A DNA stretch of 64,000 nt. It comes from Gammaproteobacteria bacterium (GTDB lineage Bacteria > Pseudomonadota > Gammaproteobacteria > Steroidobacterales > Steroidobacteraceae). Below the pieces are notes generated by a model. The model saw nothing but the letters and a program-made list of their open reading frames with translations. It ran no database searches and was not told the DNA's origin. Shown here in pieces: positions 43,734 through 59,614 of this stretch. A program made the translations under genes and the position numbers. Every line of letters begins with the position of its first letter. Positions within the stretch are counted from its first letter, which is position 1. The stretch is from assembly GCA_025358295.1 (NCBI GenBank), contig JANYJY010000009.1, forward strand, positions 1 to 64,000, in the 5' to 3' direction.

Positions 43734-45104
43734 TCAGAACTTCAACGATACCCGCAGGCCCGGTGCCGCATCGTCGAGCACCAGTCGCGCCCCGTGCAAC
43801 TTGGTGACGGCTGCCACCAGCGATAAGCCAAGGCCCGAACCCGGAAATTTGCGCGCTTCGTCCAGCCGCACGCGGCGACCCAGGACGATTTCGCGCTTAT
43901 CCGCGGGGATGCCCGGCCCGCTGTCCTCGACAATCACTTCGGGTTCCTTGGGGGACCCGCGCAACTGCACGCGGATGCGGCCGCCGTCGGGGGTGAATTT
44001 GATGGCGTTATCAAGCAGGTTGGCCAGAGCCTGGGCCAATAGCTGCCGGCTGCCGAGGACCTGCGCCCCCGCAGCGACGGAACTTTCCAATGCGATGCCG
44101 CGTTCTTCGCTCACCGGCGCATATAGTTCGACCACGCTCGCGACCAACTCCGACAGGTCGACGGGCTCGCGGGCCACCGTGCCGGTCTCCGCCAGTGCGA
44201 TGCGCAGCAGCGCATCGAGCGTGCTTCGCATATGGTCGACTTCGGTGGTTACTCGCTCGAGAACGCGCCGTCCCACCGACCCCACGCCCATCTGAGTCAT
44301 CGCCTCCTCGGCGGTGGCCTGCAGGCGGTTGAGCGGAGTGCGCAAATCGTGCGCGGCGCTGTCCAGCACCGTGCGCATGCCCAGTGTGAGTTGTTCGATC
44401 TTGTCGAGCATGGTGTTGATTTCGCGGGCCAAGGTATTGATTTCATCATCCGCATCACGAACCGGGAGGCGTTGCGACAAGTCGCCGCGCATGATCTGGG
44501 TCGCCACCGCCGAAATCGCGCCCGCCTGCGCGAGGATGCGCCGGCCCATCCAAAAGCCGCCGCCCAGGCCCAGCAAGAGGGTCATGATCACCGCGACGAT
44601 CAAACCGCGCATCATCAGGCTTTTGACGTCCTGTCGTTCCTGCACGTCGTGACCCACCAGCATTTTATAGCCGCCGGGCAGCGGGAAGCGCTGCGCGCGC
44701 ATCTCGTGCTCCCGGGTTTCGTCGCCGAACGGCACCGCCACCTTGAACAGAAACCATTTGCCGACGCTGGCATCGAGCTTCGGCCACGCGGGCACGTTGC
44801 CAGCGACGGGACGCAACTGCGGATCCACCATCAAATAGACCGCGCCGCGCACGTCCTGATCCTGGGAACGCTGCTCGATCAACTCGATGAAGTCGCTGCG
44901 CGACAGGACCACCATCTGCTCGCGCAATCCCTGCACCTCGGCTTCGATGAGATTGTCCGTGCTGCCGTCGATCACCCGCGAAACCGCAAAGTCGACCGCA
45001 CCCAGGAGCGCGGCCGCGCCGCAGGCAAAAACGATCGAGTAGACGATGGCGATACGAAACGGTGAAGTGTCGAGGACGCCGAGAAACCGTTGATCGGGTG
45101 CCAC
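43734..45104 (-). CDS. Sensor histidine kinase (HAMP, HisKA, HATPase)
   Basis: The 456-residue protein has two membrane segments (about 20-40 and 165-185) around a periplasmic domain of about 125 residues, a HAMP linker, a dimerisation box with the phospho-His in SAAHDLRTPLNRLQ near residue 250 and an ATPase domain with N box NLLDNAIKFTPDG, G1 VEDSGPGIP and G2 GSGLGLSLV. It follows its response regulator by 9 bp. Beyond the stop a small hairpin (TGACG-CTTC-CGTCA, plus 43723-43736) might weakly terminate transcription before fliL. Signal is unknown. Confidence 0.93.
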   Translation of the reverse strand: MAPDQRFLGVLDTSPFRIAIVYSIVFACGAAALLGAVDFAVSRVIDGSTDNLIEAEVQGLREQMVVLSRSDFIELIEQRSQDQDVRGAVYLMVDPQLRPVAGNVPAWPKLDASVGKWFLFKVAVPFGDETREHEMRAQRFPLPGGYKMLVGHDVQERQDVKSLMMRGLIVAVIMTLLLGLGGGFWMGRRILAQAGAISAVATQIMRGDLSQRLPVRDADDEINTLAREINTMLDKIEQLTLGMRTVLDSAAHDLRTPLNRLQATAEEAMTQMGVGSVGRRVLERVTTEVDHMRSTLDALLRIALAETGTVAREPVDLSELVASVVELYAPVSEERGIALESSVAAGAQVLGSRQLLAQALANLLDNAIKFTPDGGRIRVQLRGSPKEPEVIVEDSGPGIPADKREIVLGRRVRLDEARKFPGSGLGLSLVAAVTKLHGARLVLDDAAPGLRVSLKF

Positions 45105-45113: not shown

Positions 45114-45797
45114 CTATTCGTCTTCGCGGAGACTGTACCCGGCGCCGCGCACGGTGTGCAGCAGAGGCTTGTCGAAGTCTTTGTCGATCGCCTGGCGCAA
45201 GCGGCTGATGTGCACGTCGATCACATTGGTCTGAGGATCGAAGTGATAGTCCCACACACCCTCGAGCAGCATGGTGCGAGTCACGACCTGCCCGCTGTGG
45301 CGCATCATGAACTCCAGCAATTGAAATTCGCGTGCGGTGAGTTCGATTTTCTTGCCGTTGCGCATGACCCGCCGCGTCATTCGGTCGAGTTCCAAGCCCG
45401 CCAACTTCAATTTCGTGTTCCCTTCCGCGGCATTGTTCTCGCCGCGTCTGGCAAGGGCATCTATGCGCGCCATCAATTCCGACATGTGGTACGGCTTGGT
45501 CAGATAATCGTCGCCGCCCGCGCGCAGGCCGGTGATGCGATCATCCACGTCGCCGAGCGCGCTCAATATGAGCACCGGAATCTTGCGCCCCGTGGCGCGT
45601 AGCGACTGCACCAGGGCGAGACCGTCCAACTGAGGCAGCATTCTATCGACGATTGCCAATTCGACGTCCGCCGACGAGGCCAGGCGCAGCCCGTCGATGC
45701 CGTTTACCGCGATATCGACCGTGTGCCCCGCTTCGTGCAGCGCCTTGGCCAAGTAGTCGCGTGCGACTTCGTCATCTTCAACAATCAAGATATGCAT
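45114..45797 (-). CDS. OmpR/PhoB-family response regulator
   Basis: The 227-residue protein has a receiver domain with acidic pocket EDDE, phospho-acceptor Asp in AIVDRMLPQLDG and Lys in LTKPYHM, then a winged-helix DNA-binding domain with VTRTMLLEGVWDYHFDPQTNVIDVHISRLRQAID represented by LLEGVWDYHFDP. It is first in the operon with the sensor kinase and is divergent from the MipA/OmpV-like gene 131 bp away, so it may control that gene. Confidence 0.94.
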   Translation of the reverse strand: MHILIVEDDEVARDYLAKALHEAGHTVDIAVNGIDGLRLASSADVELAIVDRMLPQLDGLALVQSLRATGRKIPVLILSALGDVDDRITGLRAGGDDYLTKPYHMSELMARIDALARRGENNAAEGNTKLKLAGLELDRMTRRVMRNGKKIELTAREFQLLEFMMRHSGQVVTRTMLLEGVWDYHFDPQTNVIDVHISRLRQAIDKDFDKPLLHTVRGAGYSLREDE

Positions 45798-45928
45798 GTT
45801 TTGCTATCTTACAGACGTTGGACCCGTCTTTGTCGGCGCGCTAGACTTGAACAATTCGCAGGGTTCGTTTCAACCAGGACGGCGAAAGGCCAATTCATTA
45901 TGCCCGAGCCGATCTTGCAAACCAACCA

Positions 45929-46759
45929 ATGACCGTCGTTAACGCGTTGCGCACCCTGGCGCTGTTGGCAGTGTGCGGGGCCCTGCCTGTTCAGGCGAAA
46001 GAAGAGCCCTTGCTGGAATACGGCCTGGGGATCGGCGCCGTGGCGTTTGCGGATTACCGGGGCTCGGACAGTTCGCACGTGTATCCGTTGCCAATTCCCT
46101 ACATCGTTTATCACGGCACTTTTTTAAAGGCTGACCGCGACGGCGTGCGCGGCACTCTGTTCGATCAAGATCGCGTGGAACTGAATTTGAGCTTTAATGC
46201 GACCACACCGGTGCGTAACGATAGAGAACGCAGCGGCATGCCGGACCTTAAATCCACGCTGGAGCTGGGGCCATCGCTGGACTTGCATTTGCTGCGCAGC
46301 GCGGACGCACGCTTCAAATTCGATTTGCGGTTACCGCTGCGTGCCGCGCTCACCGTCGAGGCCGCGCCTCGAGTGATCGGCTGGACGTTCACGCCGCGGT
46401 TCAATTTGGATGTCGCGGATCCGTTCGGGTTCGACGGCTGGAGACTGGGATTGCTGACCGGGCCGCTGTTCGCCGAACGACGCTACCACGAATATTTCTA
46501 CTCGGTTGCCCCACAGTACGCGACAGTCCACCGGCCGGCCTACCGGGCGGTCGCCGGCTATGCGGGCACACAGGCAATCGCTTCCTTATCCAAGCGTTTT
46601 CCACATTTCTGGGTGGGAGCGTTCATGCGCTACGACACGCTTGCCGGCGCCGCCTTTCTCGACAGTCCATTGGTCCAGCGCCACAGCTACTGGTCGACGG
46701 GCTTCGGTATTTCATGGATGATCCACCGCTCTTCGACCATGGTCGAAGTCCCCGATTGA
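45929..46759 (+). CDS. MipA/OmpV family outer-membrane protein
   Basis: The 276-residue protein has a signal peptide (MTVVNALRTLALLAVCGALPVQA) and a beta-barrel pattern of alternating residues with family features YGLGIGAVAFADYRGSD near the start of the mature part and a C-terminal strand WSTGFGISWMI. MipA/OmpV proteins scaffold peptidoglycan enzymes or form small barrels, and are often controlled by the neighbouring two-component system. It is 12 bp before the acyltransferase gene, so the lipid cluster might begin with this promoter. Confidence 0.85.
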   Translation: MTVVNALRTLALLAVCGALPVQAKEEPLLEYGLGIGAVAFADYRGSDSSHVYPLPIPYIVYHGTFLKADRDGVRGTLFDQDRVELNLSFNATTPVRNDRERSGMPDLKSTLELGPSLDLHLLRSADARFKFDLRLPLRAALTVEAAPRVIGWTFTPRFNLDVADPFGFDGWRLGLLTGPLFAERRYHEYFYSVAPQYATVHRPAYRAVAGYAGTQAIASLSKRFPHFWVGAFMRYDTLAGAAFLDSPLVQRHSYWSTGFGISWMIHRSSTMVEVPD

Positions 46760-46771
46760 ACACCCGCGCCC

Positions 46772-47542
46772 ATGCTGCGACCCCTCAAGATCATCTACGA
46801 ATATTTCGCCCTCTATAGCTCGCTGACTCTCCTCGGGCTCATCTGCCTGACGTGGACCGTATTCGCATTGCCGCTCTATTTTATCCTGCCGCGACGCCCC
46901 GGCACCGCCATCGGTCGGCGCGGAATCATGTGGGGTTTTAAGATTTACGCGTGGTCCCTGTCGGTCACCGGCTCGTATCGCCTGGATCTACGCGACATCG
47001 ATTCCCTGCGGGGCGGGCCGCCCGTGATCCTGGCGCCGAATCATCCCTGCCTGATCGACGCGCTGCTGATCCTGACGCGTCATCCGAATATCGTCTGCGT
47101 GATGAAGTCGTCTCTCATGCGCAATGTGTTTTTGGGCTCCGGATCCCGGCTTGCGCGCTACGTGCGCAATGATTCTTCGCGCCAGATGGTCAAGGAATCC
47201 GTGGCGCACCTGCGCGAGGGCGGTATTCTATTGTTGTTTCCCGAAGGCACACGCACCACTCGGGCGCCGATCAATTCATTGGTCGGCAGCGTGGGTCTGA
47301 TTTCGAAGCACGCCCATGTCCCGGTGCAAACCCTGGTAATCGAAACCGATTCACCCTATCTGAGCAAGGGCTGGCCGCTGTTCAAGCGGCCGGACTTACC
47401 CGTCACGTACCGGGTCCGGCTAGGCAGGCGCTTCGACCCTCCCACCGATGTCCCGGCATTTACTGCCGAACTCGATAGGTACTACCGGCAGGAACTCAAG
47501 GGTGCACTGCAATCGCGTTGGCTCGGGCGAGCACAAGGCTGA
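46772..47542 (+). CDS. PlsC-like 1-acylglycerol-3-phosphate-type acyltransferase
   Basis: The 256-residue protein has an N-terminal hydrophobic segment (about 15-45) and the acyltransferase motifs NHPCLIDALLIL (the HX4D block) near residue 90 and LLFPEGTRTT near residue 155. In aryl polyene clusters a lysophosphatidate-acyltransferase-like enzyme attaches the polyene chain to a lipid or sugar. It is the first clear gene of the plus-strand lipid cluster. Confidence 0.9.
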   Translation: MLRPLKIIYEYFALYSSLTLLGLICLTWTVFALPLYFILPRRPGTAIGRRGIMWGFKIYAWSLSVTGSYRLDLRDIDSLRGGPPVILAPNHPCLIDALLILTRHPNIVCVMKSSLMRNVFLGSGSRLARYVRNDSSRQMVKESVAHLREGGILLLFPEGTRTTRAPINSLVGSVGLISKHAHVPVQTLVIETDSPYLSKGWPLFKRPDLPVTYRVRLGRRFDPPTDVPAFTAELDRYYRQELKGALQSRWLGRAQG

Positions 47543-47544
47543 GG

Positions 47545-48357
47545 ATGCCCGGCATGGTCATCGAATCCGATGTTCCGCAACGCTCCAACACGCACCTGGT
47601 GCTCATCCCCAGCTATAACCCCGGGCCGAAGGTGTTTGCGACGGTGCGCGACGCGCTTGCTCAGTGGGATCCTGTCTGGGTGGTGGTTGACGGCAGCACG
47701 GACCAATCGGCTCAGAGCCTGTCGGCCATGGCTGCCACGGAACCTGGATTGCGAGTGTTCGTGCTGCCCCAGAATCGCGGCAAGGGATCTGCGGTGCTGG
47801 TCGGGCTGGTCGCTGCACGAGCCGCTGGGTTCACGCATGCCTTGACCATGGATTCCGACGGCCAACACCCGGCTGAGCTGATCGGATCCTTCATGCGCGC
47901 GTCGCTGGCGGAGCCCGGCGCCATGGTGTTGGGCCGGCCGATTTTCGATGCCAGCGCACCCCCGTTACGGGTCAAGGGCCGACGAATTTCCAATTGGTGG
48001 GCCAATCTGGAAACGCTGTGGGCCGGCATCGGCGACTCCCTGTATGGTTTTCGGGTGTATCCCATCGATGAGCTGATCAAGGTCATGGACGGGCAACGGT
48101 GGATGCGGCGCTTCGACTTTGACGTGGAGGCGGTAGTGCGCCTGTGCTGGCGTGGCATCCGGCCTGTCAATCTCCCGGCGCCGGTGCGCTATTTCCGTCC
48201 CGAGGAAGGCGGCGTGTCGCATTTCAACTACGCGCGCGACAATGCCTTGCTCACTTGGATGCACTTTCGCCTTTTTTTGGGGTTTCTGTTGAGGTTGCCG
48301 CTGTTATGCGCGCGGCGCCTACGCGGCCTCGGACGGCCGTCCAGCCTAAAACCCTAG
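47545..48357 (+). CDS. Family 2 glycosyltransferase (dolichyl-phosphate-mannose-synthase-like)
   Basis: From ATG 47545 the protein has 270 residues; ATG 47554 is an alternative start that is better spaced from GAGG. The GT2 core has LIPSYNPGPKV near the N-terminus, the nucleotide motif DGSTDQS and the metal motif MDSDGQHP. The C-terminus holds a hydrophobic, basic segment (LFLGFLLRLPLLCARRL) likely at the membrane. In the E. coli-type aryl polyene clusters a GT2 domain is fused to an LpxL-type acyltransferase (ApeJ); here these are separate genes (see 51037). Confidence 0.9.
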   Translation: MPGMVIESDVPQRSNTHLVLIPSYNPGPKVFATVRDALAQWDPVWVVVDGSTDQSAQSLSAMAATEPGLRVFVLPQNRGKGSAVLVGLVAARAAGFTHALTMDSDGQHPAELIGSFMRASLAEPGAMVLGRPIFDASAPPLRVKGRRISNWWANLETLWAGIGDSLYGFRVYPIDELIKVMDGQRWMRRFDFDVEAVVRLCWRGIRPVNLPAPVRYFRPEEGGVSHFNYARDNALLTWMHFRLFLGFLLRLPLLCARRLRGLGRPSSLKP

Positions 48358-48361
48358 AAAC

Positions 48362-48397
48362 GGTGCGGGTTGCCGCCTAGGCCCGCACCTATATAAT
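48362..48397 (+). promoter_or_regulatory. Promoter and hairpin before the ACP gene
   Basis: A perfect -10 box TATAAT lies at 48392-48397, with TTGCCG at 48370-48375 as a 16-bp-spaced -35 candidate. Overlapping it is an inverted repeat with perfect 8-bp arms GGTGCGGG (48362-48369) and CCCGCACC (48382-48389) around a 12-base loop. The hairpin could end transcription of the glycosyltransferase gene only weakly, since no T-run follows, or could be a binding site. A new transcript starting near 48404 would feed the ACP gene. Confidence 0.55.
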
Positions 48398-48433
48398 GCC
48401 CGCAACTTAAATCCCCAATCGAAAGCCAAGCCT

Positions 48434-48736
48434 ATGTCCGACAAAGCGTCGCTCATGCAACAGCCGGCGCCCCTGACCGATGTCGGTCTGCAGCGGGAAA
48501 TTGCCGCCCTGTTCGTCCAAGCACTGAATCTCGAGGTTCTGCCGCAGGATATCGATCCCGAGGCGCCTCTGTACGGGGAGGGATTGGGCCTCGATTCCAT
48601 TGACATCCTGGAAGTGGCACTGATCGTATCCAAGCAATATGGGATTCAATTGCGGGCCGACGCTGCGGAAAACCAACAGACCTTCCGTTCACTGAGGCAC
48701 TTAGCAGAGTACATTGCGGCCCACAGGACCAAGTAG
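48434..48736 (+). CDS. Acyl carrier protein
   Basis: The 100-residue protein has the phosphopantetheine attachment motif GLDSID near residue 55 (GEGLGLDSIDILEVAL), a normal ACP four-helix fold. Aryl polyene clusters normally carry two ACP genes; only this one is seen. It should carry the growing chain for the ketosynthase, reductase and dehydratases encoded downstream. Confidence 0.95.
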   Translation: MSDKASLMQQPAPLTDVGLQREIAALFVQALNLEVLPQDIDPEAPLYGEGLGLDSIDILEVALIVSKQYGIQLRADAAENQQTFRSLRHLAEYIAAHRTK

Positions 48737-48738
48737 AC

Positions 48739-49371
48739 ATGTGCTGGCGGCGTAGACTGCAGCTGGCTGCCGTCATCAGCTTCATCGTCGCCTACTCAGG
48801 TCTGTCTCACTACGCCAACTCGGTCTCCAAGACTCACGACCTAGGCGTCGGTCTGGCGCTGGGACCCTTGGCGTTGATCGGGCTGCTAGTGCTATGGCGC
48901 TGGACCAGCCCCTGGGCCACATTGCTTGTGGTGGGGGCCGTGGTCCTGTTACTGGGCCACTATTGGCCAGCGCTGGAAAGACATTTCACGGTGGTCTATC
49001 TGCTTCAAGAGAGCGGCTTCTACAGCCTCATGGCGCTTAGTTTCGGCTGTTCGCTGTTCGGCGGAAGGGTCGCGCTGTGCACGCAACTTGCGGACAAGCT
49101 GCATGGCCCCCTAACCGCGCGTGAGGCGTGGTATACGCGCCAGGTCACTGCGGCGTGGGCCTTGTTATTTGTCTTCATCATGGCGGCGACTGTCGGATTG
49201 TTCATGTTCGCGCCGTTGCGCATCTGGTCTTTGTTTGCCAATTTCTGCGTACTGCCGCTCATCGCCCTCATGTTCCTGGCCGAATATGCGGTCCGGCGGC
49301 ACGCGCTGCCGCAAGCGCCTCATCGGGGCATACTCGCGGCCGTGCGGGTCTATTTCGCGAGTTCTCACTAA
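48739..49371 (+). CDS. COG4648-like membrane protein of aryl-polyene clusters
   Basis: The 210-residue protein has about five membrane segments and the conserved central part LQESGFYSLMALSFGCSLFGGRVALCTQLADKLHG, of which SLFGGR--LCT-LA is the recognisable core. Similar proteins (often noted as ketosynthase-associated, ApeG) occur between ACP and AMP-ligase in aryl polyene operons, the same position as here. Function is unknown; a role in membrane anchoring of the synthesis complex is possible. Confidence 0.85.
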   Translation: MCWRRRLQLAAVISFIVAYSGLSHYANSVSKTHDLGVGLALGPLALIGLLVLWRWTSPWATLLVVGAVVLLLGHYWPALERHFTVVYLLQESGFYSLMALSFGCSLFGGRVALCTQLADKLHGPLTAREAWYTRQVTAAWALLFVFIMAATVGLFMFAPLRIWSLFANFCVLPLIALMFLAEYAVRRHALPQAPHRGILAAVRVYFASSH

Positions 49372-49381
49372 GCTGCTGCAG

Positions 49382-51040
49382 ATGGATACGATCGCGTTAC
49401 TCTCTCATGGCTCCCCCAAAGCTGTGATCGCCTATAGAGCCGGCGCTCCCGTCACGGCCGAGCGTTTTCTATCCGACGCCAGGCGATTGGCGCGCAGCTT
49501 GCCCGCCGGCAATCACGTGCTGAACGTATGCGCGGACCGATATCGCTTCACGGTCGGCCTCGCCGCCTGCCTCATGAGCGCGCGTGTGAGCTTGCTGCCC
49601 TCATCGCACACCCCGGAAGTGATCTCTCAATTGGCGAATTTTGCGCCCGACGCCTTTTGTCTGACCGACGATCCGCGCTGCGATATCGAACTCCCCAAAG
49701 TCCACTACCCCGAGGGGCCGCCGCAACGTGTCGCGGAAATGCCTGACGGCGAATCGACCTGGGACATTCCACAGATTGCGGTGAGCCAAATCGCGGCTAT
49801 CGTCTTCACGTCCGGCTCGACCGGTACGCCGCTGCCTTACCAAAAGACCTGGGGCCGGCTCGCGGGCTGCGTGCGTGACGGCGCCGCCCGTCTCGGACTC
49901 TTAGACCGGCGCTCGCACGTACTGATCGGCACCGTGCCTGCGCAGCATATGTACGGCTTTGAGTCCACGGTGTTGCTCGCCCTGCTGAGCGGCAATGCCT
50001 TCTGTGCCGAGCGGCCTTTTTATCCCGCCGACATCGCGGCCGTTGTGACGGGAGTGCCCCGGCCGCGAGCGCTGGTGACCACTCCGGTTCACTTGCGTGC
50101 ATTGCTTGCGTCCGAACTCGACTTACCGCCGCTGGATCTCATCGTGTCGGCGACCGCTCCGCTGGGACAGGACTTGGCACGTGCCGTCGAAACCGCCTTC
50201 CACGCGCCCTTACTGGAAATCTACGGCTCCACGGAGACCGGACAGATCGCCACTCGCCGCACAGCCGAAGCCCTCGTCTGGCGGCTATGGCCCGACGTAC
50301 GGCTCACGGTGATGAACGAGCAGGTATGCGCGCATGGAGGTCACATCGAACAATTGACGGCAATGCAGGATTTGATAGAGATTACAGGTGACAAAGAGTT
50401 TCTGTTGCACGGCCGCACCGCCGACATGGTCAACATCGCCGGTAAACGCAGTTCATTCGGCTATTTGAACGCGCAGCTGAACGCGATTCCCGGCGTCACG
50501 GATGGCGTCTTTTTCTTGCGCGATTCAACGATGGGATCAACCGGCGTGGCGCGCCTGGCGGCAGCCGTGGTCGCTCCCTCTCTGAGCGTCGCCGCGCTCA
50601 CAGACCAGCTGCGTCGACGGATCGACCCGGTATTTCTGCCGCGCCCCTTGATCATCGTCGACCGCCTGCCGCGCAACGCCACGGGCAAGCTGCCGCATCA
50701 AGAGCTGCAGCAACTGGCCGCCATGAACATGCAGACCCCAATTGCGATCCCGACGGATCACCCCGCCTTCGCCGGACACTTCCCTCTGTTTCCTGTCCTG
50801 CCGGGCGCCGTGCTGATCGACGAGGCATTGCAGGCCATCGAGCGCACACGCGGCATCGATCTCACCCAGTGGCAATTGGCCGCTGTCAAATTCCTCGATG
50901 CCGTGCGTCCCGGCGAAGAACTGCGCATGGAACACGCCGCCCCGCAAACCGGAACGATTCGTTTCACCATTCATGCCGCAAACCGAATAGTCGCGAGCGG
51001 CAGCCTGTCGAGCCTGCCTCGATCGGGTGCCGCCGCATGA
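49382..51040 (+). CDS. Fusion of acyl-AMP ligase and 3-hydroxyacyl-ACP dehydratase (ApeH-ApeI-like)
   Basis: The 552-residue protein has an AMP-binding enzyme domain (about 1-440) with the P-loop FTSGSTGTPLPYQKTW near residue 145, EIYGSTETGQIATRR near 285 and the C-terminal Lys region NATGKLPHQEL. From about residue 455 a hot-dog dehydratase domain follows with DHPAFAGHFPLFPVLPGAVLIDEALQ, where His and Asp/Glu are the FabA/FabZ-like ligands (seen as FAGHFPLFPVLPGA). In standard aryl polyene clusters these are two genes, ApeH and ApeI, in that order. The ligase loads the aromatic starter or a fatty acid on ACP; the dehydratase removes water during chain growth. The reading is continuous, with no sign of a sequencing join. 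Confidence 0.9.
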   Translation: MDTIALLSHGSPKAVIAYRAGAPVTAERFLSDARRLARSLPAGNHVLNVCADRYRFTVGLAACLMSARVSLLPSSHTPEVISQLANFAPDAFCLTDDPRCDIELPKVHYPEGPPQRVAEMPDGESTWDIPQIAVSQIAAIVFTSGSTGTPLPYQKTWGRLAGCVRDGAARLGLLDRRSHVLIGTVPAQHMYGFESTVLLALLSGNAFCAERPFYPADIAAVVTGVPRPRALVTTPVHLRALLASELDLPPLDLIVSATAPLGQDLARAVETAFHAPLLEIYGSTETGQIATRRTAEALVWRLWPDVRLTVMNEQVCAHGGHIEQLTAMQDLIEITGDKEFLLHGRTADMVNIAGKRSSFGYLNAQLNAIPGVTDGVFFLRDSTMGSTGVARLAAAVVAPSLSVAALTDQLRRRIDPVFLPRPLIIVDRLPRNATGKLPHQELQQLAAMNMQTPIAIPTDHPAFAGHFPLFPVLPGAVLIDEALQAIERTRGIDLTQWQLAAVKFLDAVRPGEELRMEHAAPQTGTIRFTIHAANRIVASGSLSSLPRSGAAA

Positions 51041-51984
51041 CGCCCAAGACCGTCAATGCCCTCCAGTCGCGGGCCAAGGCGGATTGGGCCCTGCACCGTG
51101 AGCGCGGCAGCAACGCCCTGCTGCGCATCATGGCGTTGATCTCGCTGCGTTTCGGCAGAACCTTGAGCCGTATTCCGCTGTATGGGATTGCGATCTATTT
51201 TTTTCTGTTCGCACCGGGCGCGCGCCGGCATTCTCTGCGCTATCTGCGTCTTGCGCTCGGCCGCAGGCCGCGCGCGCGCGAGCGCTTTCGCCAGATACTG
51301 TGTTTTGCCACCACCATTCACGATCGCGTCTATCTGATCAACGAACAATTCGATAAATTCAACATCACTCTCGACGGTGAAGCCCTGGTGATGGCGCAGT
51401 CGGACAGCGGCATCGGCGCCATGCTCATGGGCGCCCACATGGGCAGCTTCGAGGTGATACACAGTCTCGGCAAGCGCCGGCGCGGACTCAAGGTCGCCAT
51501 GGCCATGTACGAAGAGAATGCGCGGAAAATCAATGCGACTCTCGCGGCCATCAATCCGCAGGCGGTGCCCGATATCGTGCCCTTGGGAAAGCTCGACGCC
51601 ATGCTCCATATTGCCGAACGTCTCCGCACCGGCGCGTTCGTCGGTGTGCTGGCTGACCGAACGCTGGGAGCCGAGCCCGTACAGGCCGTGACGTTGCTGG
51701 GCCAGACCGCCTACCTGCCCACGGGGCCTATGCGCGCAGCGGCCATCCTGCGCTGCCCGGTCTATTTTATGGCGGGCTTGTATCGCGGTAAAAACAACTA
51801 TCATGTGGTGTTCGAGCGAGTCGCCGATTTCTCTGCGACCCTGGCCGAAGGCCGCCATGCCGCAGTCGGCGCGGCCGTCGAGCGCTACGCCGCCGTGCTC
51901 GACCAGTACTGCCGCAGCGATCCTTACAATTGGTTTAATTTCCACGACTTCTGGCGCACCCCGCGCGGGGTCTCCAGCGAATGA
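51037..51984 (+). CDS. LpxL/HtrB-family lauroyl-type acyltransferase
   Basis: The 315-residue protein has an N-terminal membrane anchor, the LpxL fold with an HX4D/E-like block AHMGSFEVIHSLGKR near residue 130, and a later VLADRTLGAE region. The ATG overlaps the ligase stop (ATGA). In aryl polyene clusters the related ApeJ part transfers the acyl chain to a sugar or lipid acceptor at the membrane. It overlaps the LolA-like gene at its end. Confidence 0.9.
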   Translation: MTPKTVNALQSRAKADWALHRERGSNALLRIMALISLRFGRTLSRIPLYGIAIYFFLFAPGARRHSLRYLRLALGRRPRARERFRQILCFATTIHDRVYLINEQFDKFNITLDGEALVMAQSDSGIGAMLMGAHMGSFEVIHSLGKRRRGLKVAMAMYEENARKINATLAAINPQAVPDIVPLGKLDAMLHIAERLRTGAFVGVLADRTLGAEPVQAVTLLGQTAYLPTGPMRAAAILRCPVYFMAGLYRGKNNYHVVFERVADFSATLAEGRHAAVGAAVERYAAVLDQYCRSDPYNWFNFHDFWRTPRGVSSE

Positions 51985-52589
51985 CGCGCCGCGCCGTGAG
52001 CATACTGATGCTGTCCTGCCTTTGGGCAGCGTGCAGCACCGCCCCGGCTGTACAGTGCCACGCCGCGACCCGCGCGGAGCTAAGTGATCTCGACGCCTTG
52101 ATGAGCCTGCTCGCGACGCGTCGCCACGGACGGGTGGAGTTCGTCGAGCAGCAGTTTCTCGCCATCCTCAAGCGCCCGATCGAATCCTCCGGCGAATTAC
52201 GCTATGACGCGCCGGATCGACTGGAGAAGCACACTCTGATGCCCCGCGTAGAAACGATGGTGCTGTCGGGAGGCGTATTAACCGTGGAGCGTGGCGGCAA
52301 TGTGCGCATAGTGGATTTGCATCGCTATCCACAAATACTGCCCTTCATCGAGAGCATTCGCGCGACTCTGGCGGGAGATCGAGGCGCGCTCGAACGAGTT
52401 TTCGATGTCCAGTTTGCGGGCACGCTGGAACGCTGGAGCCTGGCTCTGCTTCCCCTGGACCCGCAATTGTCGCGTACGGTCAAGCAAGTGCGGATCGACG
52501 GATCGAAAGATCAGTTGTTGAGGGTTGAAATCCGTCAGGCCGACGGCGACCGTTCACTGATGACCTTGCGCACGCCCGCGGCGCCATGA
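51981..52589 (+). CDS. LolA-like outer-membrane lipoprotein carrier
   Basis: The 202-residue protein has a signal peptide with a lipobox-like region (LSCLWAACSTA) and a LolA-type half-barrel (about 35-200; FVEQQFLAILKRPIESSGELRYDAPDRLEK has the pattern KP-x-x-SSGELRY-APDRLE-). The family carries lipids from the inner to the outer membrane. In aryl polyene clusters a LolA-like gene precedes the MMPL exporter as here, and the pair should move the finished polyene lipid outward. Confidence 0.9.
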   Translation: MTRRAVSILMLSCLWAACSTAPAVQCHAATRAELSDLDALMSLLATRRHGRVEFVEQQFLAILKRPIESSGELRYDAPDRLEKHTLMPRVETMVLSGGVLTVERGGNVRIVDLHRYPQILPFIESIRATLAGDRGALERVFDVQFAGTLERWSLALLPLDPQLSRTVKQVRIDGSKDQLLRVEIRQADGDRSLMTLRTPAAP

Positions 52590-54991
52590 ACCGGTCGCGC
52601 ATGCGGATTGCGGCGCTGTGGCTGTGCTGTCTTGCCGTCGCGTCCATCATCGTGGCGCGCGCCCACTACGTAACCGACTTATCAGCGTTTCTCCCCGCCA
52701 CCCCCACACCGACACAGCAGCTGTTGGTTGACCAATTGCGCGACGGCCCCGCCTCGCGCCTGATACTCGTGGCAATTGAACGCGGCGACGCGCAAGCTCG
52801 GGCGCAAGCATCGGCGGCGACAGCAAACCGGCTGCGTCGCGACCCGCAATTCTCGAGCATCAACAACGGCGAACCGGTAACCGCGGAGCTCGACCGCGCG
52901 TTTTTGTATCAACATCGCTATTTGCTAAGCGATGCGGTGAACCCGGCGCACTTCTCGCCCACGGGTCTGCGCGCGGCCATCGAGGGTACGCTCGACGATC
53001 TAGCCTCGCCCGCGGGACTTTTGCTCAAGTCAATGTTGCCGAGCGACCCCACCGGCGAGATGCTGCACATCATCGACCAATTGCAGCGCATGCCATCGCC
53101 TGCGATGAAGGACGGCATCTGGGTATCCCGAAACGGCGAGCGCGCCCTGCTGGTGGCGCAAACCGCAGCCGGCGGCTCCGATACCGACGCGCAGGAGCGG
53201 GCGATCGAGGCGATCAGGACGGCATTCGCGGCGGCGGTACAGAGCTCCGCCGCAAGCGGCGCGAAGGCTTTGCAGCTGCGCCTGAGCGGGCCGGGTGTGT
53301 TCGCCGTGGACGCGCGCGCCAAGATCGAGCGGGCCGCCGTACGCTTGTCGATCGCAGGCAGCCTATTGGTCGTGACTCTGTTATTTACGGTGTATCGCTC
53401 TTTGCCGGCACTCGCCCTGGGAATTGCCCCCGTGGCGAGCGGCGCAGCGGTGGGCATCGCTGCGGTGGCGCTGGGATTCGGCGTCGTGCACGGCGTTACC
53501 CTGGGTTTCGGAATCACCTTGATCGGCGAATCGGTGGACTATTCGATTTATTTTTTCGTATCGGCACACGGCGGGGGGCGCAGCGGCGTGGCGGCGGCCG
53601 ACTGGCGGCGCACATGGTGGCCGACGCTGCGCTTGGGGATGCTGACCTCGGTGTTCGGCTTCGCCTCGCTTCTGCCATCGGGATTTCCGGGCCTCGCACA
53701 GCTGGGGCTGTATTCGATCAGCGGGCTGGTCGCCGCCGCGCTGGTGACGCGTTATGTGCTGCCTGCCCTGCTCCCGAGTGGATTCACCATTCACGACGTC
53801 ACGCCCCTGGGGATGTATGTCGCGAAGTGGTTGCAGCCGGTCAGGCGCCTCCCGGGCTTGACTATAACGATCCTGGGATTGGCACTGGCGGGCGCGAGCG
53901 TGGCCCTGTTGCATCATCACGGGGCGACACTATGGAACCGTGAACTCGCCGCATTGAGTCCGGTGGCCGTGGCGGATCAAGACTATGACGCCTCGCTGCG
54001 GCTGGATCTTGGCGCCGCCGATGTGCGCGAGCTCGTGATCATCTCCGGCCCGACGCTCGAGTCGGTGTTGATCGATGCCGAACGCTCGTCCAAATCGCTC
54101 GGGACTTTGGTGGACGATAAAGTGATCGGCGGATTCGACAGCCCGGCGAATTATCTGCCGAGTATGGCGACTCAAGCGCAGCGCCGGAACAGCTTGCCCG
54201 AGGCTTCGCGGCTACGCGACAACTTAAGCCAGGCCACCGCCGAGTTGAGCCTCGGCGCCGACAAGCTGGAGCCGTTTTTGAACGATGTCGAAGCGGCACG
54301 AAACGGACCCATAATCACCGAGAAGGATTTGCAGGGGACTTCACTGCGCACGGGCTTCGATTCCCTCATTTTGCGACACGGCGATGGCTGGAACGCGCTG
54401 CTTCCCCTGCATGCCGCAAGTTCGACTCAGGGGGTCGACTCGGCACGGGTTCGGGCGGCGCTGCAGGAGACTCAGCCCGTGCAGGCACAGGTACTCGATC
54501 TTAAGCGGGAGGCCGACACCATGTATGAGGGCTACCTGGACGAGGCGATTCATTTATCTTTGGCGGGGATACTGGCGATTGTCGTATTGCTGTTGGTCAC
54601 GCTGCGCTCACCGCTGCGCGTCGTCAAGATACTGGCTCCGCTGCTTCTGGCAGTGCTTACGGTCGCCGCCGGACTTGCCTCGATCGGCGTGCAGCTCAAT
54701 ATTCTTCACTTAGTGGGGATGTTGCTCATCGTTGCTGTCGGCTCCAACTACGCACTGTTTTTCGACCGGCAATCGAACCTGCATGACGCCGGCGGCGAAG
54801 CTCTCACCCTGGCATCGCTGATCATCGCCAACGCCGGTACTGTTATCGCTTTTGGCCTGCTGTCTTTCTCGAAGGTTCCGGTGTTGGTGGCGTTGGGCTC
54901 TACCGTGGCGCCGGGTGCGTTTTTGGCGCTGCTGTTTGCTGCGCTGCTGTCCCGCGCGGACCCGTCACCGTCGCAAAACTTGCGTGCGTAG
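52586..54991 (+). CDS. MMPL/RND-family lipid exporter
   Basis: The 801-residue protein has the RND layout: one N-terminal helix (IAALWLCCLAVASIIVA), a periplasmic loop of about 220 residues, five helices (about 255-400; ESVDYSIYFF), a helix near 430, a second loop, and five helices at about 645-790 (VAVGSNYALFFDR). Asp-Tyr and Asn-Tyr in the fourth helices are the MMPL proton-relay positions. It likely exports the cluster's lipid, together with the LolA-like carrier. Confidence 0.92.
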   Translation: MNRSRMRIAALWLCCLAVASIIVARAHYVTDLSAFLPATPTPTQQLLVDQLRDGPASRLILVAIERGDAQARAQASAATANRLRRDPQFSSINNGEPVTAELDRAFLYQHRYLLSDAVNPAHFSPTGLRAAIEGTLDDLASPAGLLLKSMLPSDPTGEMLHIIDQLQRMPSPAMKDGIWVSRNGERALLVAQTAAGGSDTDAQERAIEAIRTAFAAAVQSSAASGAKALQLRLSGPGVFAVDARAKIERAAVRLSIAGSLLVVTLLFTVYRSLPALALGIAPVASGAAVGIAAVALGFGVVHGVTLGFGITLIGESVDYSIYFFVSAHGGGRSGVAAADWRRTWWPTLRLGMLTSVFGFASLLPSGFPGLAQLGLYSISGLVAAALVTRYVLPALLPSGFTIHDVTPLGMYVAKWLQPVRRLPGLTITILGLALAGASVALLHHHGATLWNRELAALSPVAVADQDYDASLRLDLGAADVRELVIISGPTLESVLIDAERSSKSLGTLVDDKVIGGFDSPANYLPSMATQAQRRNSLPEASRLRDNLSQATAELSLGADKLEPFLNDVEAARNGPIITEKDLQGTSLRTGFDSLILRHGDGWNALLPLHAASSTQGVDSARVRAALQETQPVQAQVLDLKREADTMYEGYLDEAIHLSLAGILAIVVLLLVTLRSPLRVVKILAPLLLAVLTVAAGLASIGVQLNILHLVGMLLIVAVGSNYALFFDRQSNLHDAGGEALTLASLIIANAGTVIAFGLLSFSKVPVLVALGSTVAPGAFLALLFAALLSRADPSPSQNLRA

Positions 54992-55625
54992 TATCTCGGT
55001 GCCTGCCGGACTGGACGTTGCAGCGCGCACCTGCATGGTGTGGTTGCCGGGCGCTTATCAGGGGGCCCAGGATTTCCTGGAGGCAGGGTTTGCTCACGCG
55101 GTACAGACCCGGAAAATTGCGCTCGATCTGGTATTCGTGGACTTGGAACTGGAGTACTTAGACGATCGTCGCGCGCTGCGGCATTTGCGATCAGACATCA
55201 TATTGCCGGCGGCAAAAGCGGGCGTTTCGATTCAGCTGGGCGGCATCTCGCTCGGCGGCCTGTTCGCCCTGGATTATGCCGCGTCGCATGCCGGGGACAT
55301 CGATGGTCTCTGCCTGCTCGCGCCCTATCTGGGTAGTCGGATCCTAACCGCGGAAATCGCGCGCGCACCGGGACTGGCCGCGTGGCAACCAGGCGCACTT
55401 GCGGAAACCGATGAGGAGCGCCGAATATGGCGGTATATCAAGAGCCGCCAGACCGCCGCGCGGCCTTTGTACCTGGGATTCGGTCAAGAAGATCGCTTTT
55501 CGGAGGCGCATCGACTACTGGCCGCGACATTGTCCGCAGCCGACGTCGATGAGATACCGGGCGGCCACGACTGGCCCACCTGGTCGAGGCTATGGGAGAA
55601 CTATCTGGATTCACACGTCATATGA
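54984..55625 (+). CDS. Alpha/beta-hydrolase of the lipid cluster
   Basis: There is no good ATG; GTG 54984 (overlapping the exporter stop by 8 bp) or GTG 54999 are the best starts, giving about 213 or 208 residues. The protein has VWLPGAYQGAQDFLEAG after a first strand, the nucleophile elbow GGISLGGLFALDYA near residue 88, FGQEDRFSEAH and the catalytic His in PGGHDWPTW. It may act as the thioesterase or deacylase of the pathway, taking the place of the 4HBT thioesterase (ApeK) found in standard clusters; this is inference. It overlaps the next gene by ATGA. Confidence 0.82.
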   Translation: MRSISVPAGLDVAARTCMVWLPGAYQGAQDFLEAGFAHAVQTRKIALDLVFVDLELEYLDDRRALRHLRSDIILPAAKAGVSIQLGGISLGGLFALDYAASHAGDIDGLCLLAPYLGSRILTAEIARAPGLAAWQPGALAETDEERRIWRYIKSRQTAARPLYLGFGQEDRFSEAHRLLAATLSAADVDEIPGGHDWPTWSRLWENYLDSHVI

Positions 55626-56437
55626 GCGCACACGAGAACGTTGCAAGTCGTTGGTCGCCGTCGCCGCTTCTGTATGCGTCCGCCGCGGTTCACCTCGGCG
55701 CAGCGGCAGCGCTGCTGGCACGCCCGCGTGCTTGGCCGTGGGCGCTGGGAGCCCTGGCGGCGAACCACGTCGTGCTGGCCGCGGCCGGGCTTTGGCCACG
55801 CAGCCGCCTGCTGGGACCGAATTGGATTCGGCTGCCCGAGCATGGAGGCGCGTCGGCAGGCGTCGCAATTACCATCGACGACGGGCCGGACCCCGATGTG
55901 ACTCCGCTGGTCCTATCGCAACTCGACCGGCACCAAGCGCACGCAACTTTTTTTTGCGTAGGCGACCGGGTCGAGCGCCATGCGGACCTGGCTCGGGAAA
56001 TCGTGGGCCGTGGTCACTGCATCGAGAATCACAGCCAGCGACATCGCCACAATTTCTCTTTGCTGGGCCCCGGCAGCATGGCCGCGGAAATAACGCGCGC
56101 CCAAGCCAGCATCCAGCGCGTGACCGGCAGCAGCCCGCAATTTTTTCGTGCGCCCGCAGGCCTGCGCAATCCGTTTCTCGATCCCATCTTGGTGCGCCTG
56201 CAGCTGCGGCTCGCGAGCTGGACGCGCCGCGGCTTCGACACCGTCAACGCGGATGCGGATGCCGTCTACCGGCGGCTGGCAAATCCCCTGCAGGCCGGCG
56301 ACATCCTGTTGCTGCACGATGGCAACGCGGCACGCACCCAGGGTGGCAAGCCGGTGATCCACGAGGTTCTGCCGCGCCTGCTCGACGACCTGGCCGGGCT
56401 GGGGTTGCGTCCCGTTACCCTGCGCGCCGCGTTGTAA
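55622..56437 (+). CDS. Polysaccharide deacetylase (NodB/CE4 domain), membrane-anchored
   Basis: The 271-residue protein has two N-terminal hydrophobic helices (about 15-60) followed by a NodB domain (about 78-265): ITIDDGPDPD (metal and base Asp), HSQRHRH with the metal His pair, FFRAPAG and LLHDGNAA. All CE4 motifs needed for activity appear present. Such enzymes remove N-acetyl groups from GlcNAc-type sugars. With the GT2 and acyltransferases in the cluster it may prepare an amino sugar head group that is then acylated, a hypothesis. Polysaccharide deacetylases are not part of standard aryl polyene clusters. Confidence 0.92.
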   Translation: MSAHENVASRWSPSPLLYASAAVHLGAAAALLARPRAWPWALGALAANHVVLAAAGLWPRSRLLGPNWIRLPEHGGASAGVAITIDDGPDPDVTPLVLSQLDRHQAHATFFCVGDRVERHADLAREIVGRGHCIENHSQRHRHNFSLLGPGSMAAEITRAQASIQRVTGSSPQFFRAPAGLRNPFLDPILVRLQLRLASWTRRGFDTVNADADAVYRRLANPLQAGDILLLHDGNAARTQGGKPVIHEVLPRLLDDLAGLGLRPVTLRAAL

Positions 56438-56446
56438 ACTGCGCCG

Positions 56447-57640
56447 ATGAGACCACTGCTGATGCAGAAATTCACGGCAACCAGTTGCATAGGCAAGGGA
56501 GCTGCGCAGACCTTTCAGAGCCTGACGGAAGGCCGCAGCGGCCTCACGCACTGCGATTTCGAGACCGTGGACATCAACACCCACATCGGCGAAGTGCCCG
56601 GCGTCGATGCCGCGGCGCTGCCCGACGATCTGCGTAGATTCGACTGCCGCAATAACCGCTTGGCCGAACTCGCCCTGCAGCAGGACGATTTCTACGAGGC
56701 CGTGCAGCGGACCGCAGCTCGATGGGGCAGACGGCGGGTGGGCGTGTTCATGGGAACGAGCACTGCGGGCATTCTGCAAACCGAGCTTGCCTATCGCGAG
56801 CGCGATCCCGTCAGCGGCGCGCTGCCGGTGAGCTTCGAGTACCGCTCGACCCACAATTCATTTTCCGTGGCCGACTACCTTCGCCAACGATGCCGATTGG
56901 AAGGTCCCGCTGTGGCGGTGTCCTGCGCATGCGCATCCAGCGCCAAGGTATTCGCCTCGGCGCGCCGCATGATCGAGGCCGGGCTCATCGATGCCGCACT
57001 GGTGGGCGGCGTCGATTCATTGTGCCTCACGACCTTGTACGGTTTTCACTCCTTACAGCTCTCCTCGCCGACGCCGTGCCGGCCATTCGATGTGGCGCGC
57101 GACGGCATTTCCGTGGGCGAAGCAGCCGCGTTCGCATTGATAGAGCGGCTGCCGGACGGCATCGACAGCAATTCGGTGTTCTTGCTCGGCATTGGTGAAT
57201 CGAGCGACGCATATCACATGTCGGCGCCGCACCCCGAGGGACTGGGCGCCCGCCGCGCCATGCAAGCCGCACTGGTATCAGCCGGACTCGAGCCTGGAGC
57301 CATTGACTACATCAATCTGCACGGCACCGGGACGCCGAGCAACGACCGCTCGGAGAGTCGGGCGGTGGTCAGCGTATTCGGCCCGACCATTCCTTGCAGT
57401 TCGACCAAGGGAGCCACCGGTCACACGCTGGGAGCGGCCGGTGCGCTTGAGGCCGTCATCAGCGCCCTGTGCGTGCAACACGACTTCATGCCCGGCGGAG
57501 TGCATACGAACGAGATCGATCCAACACTCATGGCTCACTACATAAGGGAGAATCGCCGCGCCCCGGTTGCGCACGTACTGTCCAACTCATTTGGTTTCGG
57601 CGGTACCAACTGCAGCCTGATCTTCGGACGGGCTGGATGA
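56447..57640 (+). CDS. Beta-ketoacyl-ACP synthase (FabF-like, ApeO-like)
   Basis: The 397-residue protein has the full Cys-His-His triad: Cys in AVSCACASSAK near residue 165, His in NLHGTGTPSND near 290 and His in GATGHTLGAAG near 325, and ends with SFGFGGTNCSLIF. It condenses malonyl-ACP with the chain. It starts 9 bp after the deacetylase gene. The neighbour at 57637 is its likely chain-length-factor partner. Confidence 0.93.
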   Translation: MRPLLMQKFTATSCIGKGAAQTFQSLTEGRSGLTHCDFETVDINTHIGEVPGVDAAALPDDLRRFDCRNNRLAELALQQDDFYEAVQRTAARWGRRRVGVFMGTSTAGILQTELAYRERDPVSGALPVSFEYRSTHNSFSVADYLRQRCRLEGPAVAVSCACASSAKVFASARRMIEAGLIDAALVGGVDSLCLTTLYGFHSLQLSSPTPCRPFDVARDGISVGEAAAFALIERLPDGIDSNSVFLLGIGESSDAYHMSAPHPEGLGARRAMQAALVSAGLEPGAIDYINLHGTGTPSNDRSESRAVVSVFGPTIPCSSTKGATGHTLGAAGALEAVISALCVQHDFMPGGVHTNEIDPTLMAHYIRENRRAPVAHVLSNSFGFGGTNCSLIFGRAG

Positions 57641-58434
57641 GCTTATCTGCCTATATCAACGGCATCGGAGTGTTGGGACCCGGACTCGCCGATTGGCCGC
57701 GGACCGCGGCCGTGCTCTGCGGCCGACACCTGTACCGACCCGCACCCACGGTGCTCCCAATGCCGACGATACTCGCGCCCGCCGAACGGCGCCGCGTCGG
57801 CCGCGTGGTCAAATTAGCGTTGTGCGTCGGGCTCGAAGCAACTGCGCAGGCGGGCGAGAATCCCGTTGGACTCGCCAGCGTGTTTTCCTCCTCGGGCGGA
57901 GACGGGCAAAATTGTCATGAGCTTTGCCATGCCCTATCGCTCGCGGGACGGGAGATCTCACCGACGCGATTCGCCAATTCCGTGCACAACGCCGCCGCGG
58001 GCTATTGGAGCATCGGCACGGGGGCCGTGGCCGAGTCGAACGTGCTATGCGCATTCGACGCCAGTTTTACGGCGGGTTTATTGGAAGCCTTGACTCAGGT
58101 CGTCGTCGATCAGGTGCCGGTGCTGCTGGTTGCCTATGACAGCGAATATCCGCAACCCCTGCACGCTAAGCGCCCGATCCCCGATGCCTTCGGCGTCGCT
58201 CTGGTTCTGACGCCGAGCCGGCGTGAGTCGTCGCTGGTGAGAATCGACGCCGAACTGAGCAGCTCGGTCGCCGACCGGCTAGAGCATCCAGCGCTCGAAG
58301 AATTGCGCTCAACCTGCCCCGCGGCCCGCTCGCTGCCGCTGCTGCGGCTATTGGCGGCGCCGGCCGGAGGCAGAGCAGCTCTCGATTATCTCGACGCATC
58401 GCGCGTGCAGGTACAAGTCGAGCCATGCGCCTAG
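57637..58434 (+). CDS. Ketosynthase chain-length-factor-like protein (ApeC-like)
   Basis: The 265-residue protein has the N-terminal ketosynthase half only (Ketoacyl-synt_2 type): VFSSSGGDGQNCHELCHAL, PTRFANSVHNAAAGYWSIGTG and VLCAFDASFTAGLLEAL. Where an active ketosynthase has its catalytic Cys, this seems to have Asp (CAFDAS). The C-terminal His residues are absent. Such proteins pair with a full ketosynthase and set chain length (ApeC with ApeO in E. coli). It overlaps the upstream gene by ATGA and the next gene by 10 bp. Confidence 0.88.
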   Translation: MSLSAYINGIGVLGPGLADWPRTAAVLCGRHLYRPAPTVLPMPTILAPAERRRVGRVVKLALCVGLEATAQAGENPVGLASVFSSSGGDGQNCHELCHALSLAGREISPTRFANSVHNAAAGYWSIGTGAVAESNVLCAFDASFTAGLLEALTQVVVDQVPVLLVAYDSEYPQPLHAKRPIPDAFGVALVLTPSRRESSLVRIDAELSSSVADRLEHPALEELRSTCPAARSLPLLRLLAAPAGGRAALDYLDASRVQVQVEPCA

Positions 58435-58886
58435 ACCGCGCGTGGATCGAGCTCCACATTCCGCATAGCGGCCGGATGTGCCTGCTCGATGAAGTCATCG
58501 ACTGGGATGCACAACATATCCGCTGCCGAAGCGGGACTCAGCGTGCGGCCGATCACCCGCTGCTTTCCAGGGGCCGGCTGGGGATAGCCTGCGGAATCGA
58601 ATACGCGGCTCAGGCCATGGCCGTGCACGGTGCGCTCCTCGGCGGCGCTGCCGGCAATGGTACCGGCCCGCGAACCGAAGCAGGTTTTCTTGCGAGCCTG
58701 CGGAATGTTCAATTGCATGTTCAGCGGCTCGACGACATACAATCCGATCTGATTTGCGAGGCAGCCCTGGTTGCCGGAGATCGCGACGGCGCCCTGTACG
58801 AATTTACGGTGTCGTCGCTGTCGCGGCCGCTCGTGAGCGGGCGCGCCACCGTGGTATTCGATGCCGGCAAGCGGTTGAAAAAATGA
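58425..58886 (+). CDS. 3-Hydroxyacyl-ACP dehydratase (ApeP-like hot-dog)
   Basis: The 153-residue protein starts with IPHSGRMCLLDEVIDWD, the pattern of ApeP/xanthomonadin-type dehydratases, and has CGIEYAAQAMAVHGALLGG in the central helix. It removes water from the 3-hydroxyacyl chain together with the dehydratase domain at 49382-51040. It overlaps the genes on both sides. Confidence 0.9.
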   Translation: MRLDRAWIELHIPHSGRMCLLDEVIDWDAQHIRCRSGTQRAADHPLLSRGRLGIACGIEYAAQAMAVHGALLGGAAGNGTGPRTEAGFLASLRNVQLHVQRLDDIQSDLICEAALVAGDRDGALYEFTVSSLSRPLVSGRATVVFDAGKRLKK

Positions 58887-59614
58887 ATGTAATACAAATT
58901 CGAGCGTTGGTGACCGGCGGCAGCGGCGGGATAGGCGCGGCCATTTGCCGACGCCTTGGCGCCGCGGGCCGTTTCGTTTACGTGCATGCGCATCGGAACA
59001 TGTCTGCGGCCGAAACGATTGCGGGCGACATCAATGCAGCGGGCGGCCAAGCGGCCGCCGTTCAATTCGATCTGACCGATGCGGCCGCGACTCGCGCTGC
59101 AGTGGAGAGACTGCTCGAAGCCGGACCGGTGCAAGTCCTCGTGAACAACGCGGGCGTCCACGACGACGCTGTATTTCCGGGAATGAGCCCCGCGCAATGG
59201 CACCGCGTCATCGACTTGTCGGTCAATGGATTTTACAACGTGACTCAACCGCTGATGCTACCCATGATTCGTACTCGTTGGGGGCGCATCGTCAGCATAT
59301 CGTCGGTATCGGCGCTGATCGGCAATCGCGGCCAAGTGAACTACGCGGCCGCCAAGGGCGCCCTGAATGCCGCCACGAAGGCGCTGAGTTTGGAAGTGGC
59401 CAGCCGGGGCATTACCGTCAATGCAGTGGCACCGGGAATTGTTTCCACCAGCATGGCCGACGGCGCCTTCAATGCCGCCGCCATCGCCGCTATCGTGCCG
59501 ATGAAGCGCGCAGGCAGCGCCGAGGAAGTAGCAAGCTTGGTGGCCTACCTCGCCTCCGAGGAGGCTGGGTACATCACCGGCCAAGTCATTTCCATCGACG
59601 GCGGGATGGCCTAG
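58883..59614 (+). CDS. 3-Oxoacyl-ACP reductase (FabG-like, ApeQ-like)
   Basis: The 243-residue protein is a short-chain dehydrogenase with cofactor motif TGGSGGIGAAI, NNAGV near residue 90, catalytic Ser in ISSVSALIG, Tyr-x-x-x-Lys in NYAAAKGAL and the C-terminal GQVISIDGGM. It reduces the keto group in chain elongation. It is the last gene of the cluster; its TAG overlaps, tail to tail, the stop of fliK on the other strand (59611-59614). Confidence 0.95.
   Translation: MNVIQIRALVTGGSGGIGAAICRRLGAAGRFVYVHAHRNMSAAETIAGDINAAGGQAAAVQFDLTDAAATRAAVERLLEAGPVQVLVNNAGVHDDAVFPGMSPAQWHRVIDLSVNGFYNVTQPLMLPMIRTRWGRIVSISSVSALIGNRGQVNYAAAKGALNAATKALSLEVASRGITVNAVAPGIVSTSMADGAFNAAAIAAIVPMKRAGSAEEVASLVAYLASEEAGYITGQVISIDGGMA

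Follow-up and report, generated by a model that had tools for sequence, protein, structure and literature searches.

The closest described systems to the locus reported here are the xanthomonadin (xan/pig) and Lysobacter yellow-pigment clusters and the arcuflavin genes of Azoarcus sp. BH72. The locus is a run of 14 + strand genes that fills positions 46772-59614, both bounds being exact gene ends, of what we call the window, the whole stretch of 64,000 nucleotides analysed from contig JANYJY010000009.1 of a Steroidobacteraceae genome (GCA_025358295.1). In the pathway outlined in PMC3949708 and PMC3691225, a XanB2-like enzyme provides 3-hydroxybenzoate, which is activated by a ligase and extended into a polyene through cycles of ketosynthase/chain-length factor (KS/CLF), ketoreductase (KR) and dehydratase. 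The gene table of PMC3949708 divides the arcuflavin genes between two loci (azo3910-3921 and azo0253-0264), each of them needed for the pigment, and insertion mutants of arcK and arcT are described there as colourless. Locus one is listed with a peptidoglycan-binding protein, a ketosynthase, a truncated ketosynthase-like protein, a dehydratase, a reductase, an antiporter, another reductase, a glycosyltransferase, an acyltransferase, MipA, XanB2 and a halogenase; locus two with a methyltransferase, a polysaccharide deacetylase (arcN), the undescribed arcO, an exporter, LolA, an acyltransferase, a dehydratase, an AMP-ligase, the undescribed arcU, an acyl carrier protein (ACP), a histidine kinase and a response regulator. 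No ammonia-lyase or thioesterase is named in that table.

Comparison with these systems led us to regard the locus, with a probability of about 0.82, as a xanthomonadin/arcuflavin-type aryl-polyene lipid cluster that would draw 3-hydroxybenzoate from a chorismatase encoded on another contig and yield a membrane-anchored yellow product. Like clusters of that type, it has a single dedicated ACP together with an AMP-ligase, a GT2 glycosyltransferase, acyltransferases, a LolA-like protein, an exporter, MipA and a deacetylase (Table 1). When the names in the arcuflavin gene table, not the sequences, were compared, 16 of the 24 arc genes had a counterpart of the same kind here, arcO and arcU being matched by position (PMC3949708). 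The order exporter, unknown protein or hydrolase, deacetylase is also common to both, with arcO likened to the hydrolase by position alone. On the other hand, the genes occupy one locus instead of two, the ligase and the second dehydratase are fused, and arcA (halogenase), arcB (XanB2), arcF, arcG (antiporter), arcL and arcM (methyltransferase) have no counterpart in this locus; arcuflavin proper is a polyene-dialkylresorcinol hybrid with darA/darB, and the likeness covers the arc genes. As the xanthomonadin and Lysobacter clusters are described in PMC3691225, they share with the window a KS with a truncated CLF, a single ACP, a KR and two dehydratases, as well as an acyltransferase, an outer-membrane carrier and exporters. 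Their 3-hydroxybenzoate starter comes from a XanB2-like enzyme encoded inside the cluster, whereas here it is predicted to come from a family member that another contig encodes. The 14 genes listed by a first-pass annotation of this DNA were all found on the + strand, supported by domain or NCBIfam scores or by homologues, and its view of them as an aryl-polyene-like, xanthomonadin-like type II polyketide synthase/lipid cluster was borne out by the domain matches and the arc gene list. It was also right about what the locus lacks, as a Pfam scan of the 19 proteins encoded in 43734-63312 returned neither an ammonia-lyase or XanB2 nor a second ACP or a 4HBT thioesterase. A second KS and a DUF3261 protein were likewise absent from these proteins; of the APE markers second ACP, second KS, 4HBT thioesterase and DUF3261, the genome-wide search covered KS domains.

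To place the locus among its relatives, 60 genomes including the window's own were considered, 22 of which carry a KS above the NF006618 cut-off. KS loci were taken from 19 of the 21 other KS-bearing genomes, leaving out two with short contigs (G005 and G008). The same order and content recur in relatives, so the arrangement of the genes is not due to chance. Five plasmid records of the same type (three from Caballeronia, one from Azospirillum ramasamyi and one from Roseomonas haemaphysalidis), hereafter the named clusters, served as a further comparison set; these uncharacterised clusters show the same core plus a CE4 deacetylase. Those of Azospirillum and Roseomonas resemble the window in having one ACP and no annotated ammonia-lyase, and differ from it in carrying methyltransferases and an oxidoreductase or halogenase. 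Five proteobacterial aryl-polyene (APE) clusters were also compared, those of Acinetobacter, Klebsiella and Pseudoalteromonas through their annotation and those of Stenotrophomonas and Cupriavidus through tblastn and the KS tree.

The APE clusters have KS, CLF, ACP, GT2, LpxL-type, MMPL and FabG genes in common with the window, at 23-50% identity, which is what would be expected if the locus were a standard two-ACP APE cluster, like those of E. coli/Xenorhabdus, after gene loss. We consider such an origin scarcely credible. Each of the three annotated APE clusters carries a second ACP and a second KS as well as a thioesterase and DUF3261, an ammonia-lyase is annotated in two, and none of these second copies or additional genes is present in the locus, which instead has CE4 and MipA, both without a match in the five APE clusters (0/5; tblastn, E 1e-3). 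The local aromatic ammonia-lyase of flexirubin clusters and of some APE clusters is likewise not in this locus. In the KS tree, which has 35 rows and no Xanthomonas or Azoarcus KS among them, the five APE KSs formed a group of their own (support 99/100). The window KS grouped with those of its congeners in a set of 10 rows (100/98), and a larger set of 23 rows united the window, the congeners and Caballeronia (95/97).

The CE4 deacetylase had been presented by the first-pass annotation as an addition to the usual gene set, a novelty that we reject in view of the listing of arcN in the arcuflavin table (PMC3949708) and of its occurrence elsewhere: the locus largely falls in a described family with the same deacetylase. 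CE4 is present in 18 of the 19 relatives' KS loci, the exception being G031, where neither the KS locus nor a second stretch has it, and tblastn found a match in all five named clusters. Its PDB matches are peptidoglycan/chitin deacetylases, and it carries the motifs TIDDGP, NHSxxH, FRAPAG and LLLHD, most of which are retained across 21 relatives' copies in a listing that leaves out two copies cut at contig ends. The patterns were missed three times for NHSxxH, once each for the first and third motifs and twice for the last, from divergence or narrow patterns. Conservation was judged from this listing because the rows of the alignment are local matches, for which a count of invariant columns is a poor measure. 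The expected substrate would be an N-acetylamino sugar of the lipid anchor or of its precursor, given the mostly kept motifs, the hydrophobic N-terminal part and the co-occurrence with GT2. A bolder and tentative proposal is that CE4 and GT2 might build a deacetylated, cationic amino-sugar anchor for the polyene, to which the hydrolase of the window's clade would add a step, either release from the ACP or trimming of anchor esters; we have not seen such a lipid described for this pigment type.

Deacetylases of this family were also met in other settings. A deacetylase scan of the genome contigs gave 11 loci, and L008, the one inspected, had no polyene gene near the deacetylase; the KS locus of that same genome is APE-like and without a CE4 match. 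In the match listings for Caballeronia sp. M1242, a CE4 gene and a KS 44% identical to that of the window lie about 11 kb apart. Plasmid pAUEa of Aureispira anguillae (L140, 1616-13231) holds a polysaccharide deacetylase beside LolA in a Bacteroidota polyene-type cluster, along with an aromatic ammonia-lyase, a thioesterase, two carrier proteins and a chain-length factor, and therefore CE4 is not exclusive to the arcuflavin type.

The alpha/beta-hydrolase, the other gene that had been described as added, is indeed variable, although arcuflavin has the undescribed arcO in the same position. It was detected in 11 of the 19 relatives' loci, or 11 of 17 readable ones, as in two of the other eight the contig breaks off ahead of its slot, and tblastn gave no match in the five named clusters. 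This patchy occurrence marks it as accessory. Ser72, Asp153 and His178 are kept in 11/11 aligned rows (the window and 10 relatives, with G017 outside the alignment). As the locus has no 4HBT thioesterase, the hydrolase is a candidate for releasing the chain from the ACP, and it could alternatively edit the anchor. Four matches to it were found on plasmid records, all of them from Variovorax, one of which (L139) lies amid mostly hypothetical genes. Its restriction to part of the relatives and its lack of a match in the named clusters are also the points in favour of a rival reading, a lipid pathway of another category whose new product class would be defined by CE4 and the hydrolase; this seems highly improbable, as CE4 is a regular component of the described type and the core enzymes correspond to those listed for arcuflavin.

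The apparent lack of a starter enzyme was followed beyond the cluster. The window's genome contains one FkbO/Hyg5/XanB2-type chorismatase above cut-off (G000:C41:3484-3885; PF21168, 98.2 bits, cut-off 27), so that absence of the enzyme from the organism was rejected, and the genes reported as missing are in this respect present elsewhere, with an activity that is predicted. The open reading frame (ORF; L045:3019-4182, - strand) ends in a YjgF-like domain (PF01042, 28.3 bits, cut-off 27.3). Its closest PDB chain is 5ag3 (E=1.7e-41), which we take to be Hyg5, and 5a3k and FkbO (4bps) were also matched. With 5ag3 it shares the stretches SGTAS and DVCR, where FkbO has SATAG and DIAR. Hyg5-type enzymes are characterised in PMC7170507 as typically having two Gly and one Cys, which we infer to correspond to these stretches, although PMC3949708 notes that the reaction of a chorismatase is not fixed by sequence alone. 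Close homologues, 59-72% identical over the alignment, occur in eight congeners, each of which has the cluster KS, and group with the C41 enzyme in a nine-row set (support 96/99), several of them sharing some neighbours. In G007 and G030, the homologue stands directly beside MipA, in the place of the two-component pair; G016 and G031 have it within the KS region. Altogether, chorismatase was found in 18 of 22 genomes with the cluster KS versus 4 of 15 without it (37 genomes; Fisher p=0.0017, uncorrected for kinship).

Around the C41 gene (L045:210-5168), the neighbours on the same strand are an aldo/keto reductase, a PF04199 cyclase, a CMD-family protein, a cupin and a class IV aminotransferase. 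This neighbourhood is partly conserved in congeners, and the chorismatase may also serve another pathway. The rearranged cluster of G016 (G016:C158; L069, L102), with the chorismatase inside, has a KS only 49% identical to that of the window, which groups in the tree with a stand-alone KS of Variovorax; the cluster was possibly acquired from another lineage. That KS, from Variovorax paradoxus VAI-C (L074:19983-21188), is 51% identical to the window KS, and no polyene genes are annotated in the 41 kb around it.

Several observations weigh against the assignment to the xanthomonadin/arcuflavin type with a 3-hydroxybenzoate starter. The type is not shown as one clade by the KS tree: the APE KSs branch next to Roseomonas (95/93), where the tool warns that long branches meet, and the 23-row set does not include Azospirillum, Roseomonas, G016 or G031. 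The C41 chorismatase reaches 203 bits with TIGR04444, below the cut-off of 325, and is unlinked to the cluster in the window's genome. Four of the 22 KS-bearing genomes have no chorismatase match, three of them being less than 90% complete, and four genomes carry a chorismatase without a KS. In the stretches read of the five named clusters, tblastn found no chorismatase (0/5), and Ralstonia is said, in the account given by PMC9542644, to hold a pig-like cluster without xanB2. These last two cases make another starter possible, and the same machinery could then begin from 4-hydroxybenzoate of ubiquinone synthesis, from lyase-derived cinnamate or coumarate, or from a non-aromatic acyl unit. The E. 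coli APE pathway offers a parallel, being predicted to start from 4-hydroxybenzoic acid with a gene table that shows no lyase (PMC8253772). We judge a different starter rather unlikely, as the occurrence of the chorismatase in relatives follows that of the cluster and the enzyme agrees with 5ag3 at the two stretches where FkbO differs. The genome does hold four Lyase_aromatic genes, all on contigs other than that of the cluster, which were taken from a family scan, a motif search having recovered only one of the four. HutH models give the best match to all four, with one gene above cut-off and three below every NCBIfam cut-off. Over the matched stretches, which were scanned in place of whole ORFs, the cut-offs of FlxA/TAL and PAL are not reached by any of the four; a supply of the starter by ammonia-lyases is thus held unlikely.

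Under the preferred assignment, the XanB2-like chorismatase would form 3-hydroxybenzoate, which the AMP-ligase would load onto the single ACP, and KS/CLF, FabG and the two dehydratase domains would extend this starter with malonyl units to a conjugated polyene. The GT2, PlsC-type and LpxL-type enzymes would attach the polyene to a sugar/acyl anchor, whose N-acetylamino sugar, or that of a precursor, would be deacetylated by CE4, and MMPL, LolA and MipA would bring the lipid to the outer membrane. There the yellow glycolipid polyene could serve as an antioxidant or light screen. The anchoring and export steps are drawn by analogy with the E. coli APE system, for which attachment to a lipid anchor by acyl- and glycosyltransferases and transport to the outer membrane by an RND exporter and Lol-like proteins are put forward as proposals in PMC8253772, which cites the structure of the Xenorhabdus APE lipid as a preprint.

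Table 1. Genes of the cluster and its upstream flank (positions in the window).
Gene product	Position	Strand	Compare	Basis
Sensor histidine kinase, divergent from cluster	43734..45104	-	arcW	PF02518/PF00672/PF00512
OmpR-type response regulator	45114..45797	-	arcX	PF00072/PF00486
MipA/OmpV outer-membrane protein	45929..46759	+	arcC	PF06629 144.9 bits
PlsC-type acyltransferase	46772..47542	+	arcD	PF01553 44.7 bits; NHX4D and FPEGTR motifs
GT2 glycosyltransferase	47545..48357	+	arcE	PF00535 57.4 bits
Single acyl carrier protein	48434..48736	+	arcV/XanC	NF006617 127.5 bits (cut-off 70); PF00550 36.3
COG4648-like membrane protein	48739..49371	+	ApeG; arcU by position	tblastn homologues; PF04279 18.6 bits (cut-off 28.7)
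AMP-ligase with C-terminal FabA-like domain, putative starter activation	49382..51040	+	arcT+arcS	PF00501 80 bits; PF07977 19.8 (cut-off 23)
LpxL-type acyltransferase	51037..51984	+	arcR	PF03279 36.1 bits
LolA-like periplasmic carrier	51981..52589	+	arcQ	PF19574 77.4 bits
MMPL/RND exporter	52586..54991	+	arcP/ApeM	PF03176 70.5 bits
Alpha/beta-hydrolase	55035..55625	+	arcO position	PF12146 23.5 bits (cut-off 27); candidate triad Ser72/Asp153/His178
CE4 (NodB-type) deacetylase, N-terminal part hydrophobic	55622..56437	+	arcN	PF01522 89.7 bits
Ketosynthase	56447..57640	+	arcK	NF006618 546 bits (cut-off 407); PF00109/PF02801 85.6/104
Truncated chain-length factor	57637..58434	+	arcJ; Lysobacter ORF16	PF13723 100.7 and 101.4 bits in two scans; PDB chain 6qsp_B E=2.8e-9
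Hotdog-type dehydratase	58425..58886	+	arcI	No Pfam match; position and tblastn
FabG-type ketoreductase	58883..59614	+	arcH	NF004200 342.7 bits (cut-off 273); PF00106 172.3

The cluster is tightly packed and looks complete. The first-pass annotation had most junctions as stop/start overlaps, and with the starts chosen here seven of the 13 do overlap, including the 4-base overlap by which the truncated CLF directly follows the KS, the remaining six being spaced by 2-76 bases. Four names stand on weaker grounds, those of the hydrolase, the FabA-like tail of the ligase, the COG4648-like protein, for which tblastn found homologues in Caballeronia and Azospirillum, and the dehydratase, which is 49-53% identical to the gene in the same slot of Caballeronia and Azospirillum, annotated as a dehydratase in the latter. 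GT2 is 67-75% identical to its homologues in Caballeronia, Azospirillum and Roseomonas, and the NCBIfam model nearest to the LolA-like protein is that of flexirubin LolA2 (42.2 bits, below the cut-off of 125).

The MipA gene and the divergent two-component pair, omitted by the first-pass annotation, also go with the 14 genes, the pair doing so in the window's clade. MipA, whose gene ends 12 bases before that of the PlsC-type enzyme, occurs in the Azospirillum and Roseomonas stretches and in two of the three from Caballeronia. The kinase/regulator pair adjoins MipA in seven (G001, G003, G009, G010, G018, G020 and G021) of the 10 relatives whose fetched DNA extends beyond MipA, with response regulators 89-92% identical to that of the window, and was not found beside it in G007, G030 and the rearranged G016; from its position it may regulate the cluster. 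Downstream, a convergent FliK-like gene (59611-61272, - strand) runs 4 bases into the end of the ketoreductase gene, and in 10 of the 19 relatives' loci the cluster is likewise followed by a FliK homologue.

In conclusion, a known pigment type explains most of the genes that seemed added or missing, and the stretch is in that sense largely ordinary: the deacetylase marks this known type and not a new one. The contrast in its occurrence between clusters of the same type (18/19 relatives, 5/5 named clusters) and APE clusters (0/5) makes CE4 a good candidate for anchor chemistry, and the position of the chorismatase, inside or outside the cluster among close relatives, means that clusters of this family can look starterless.

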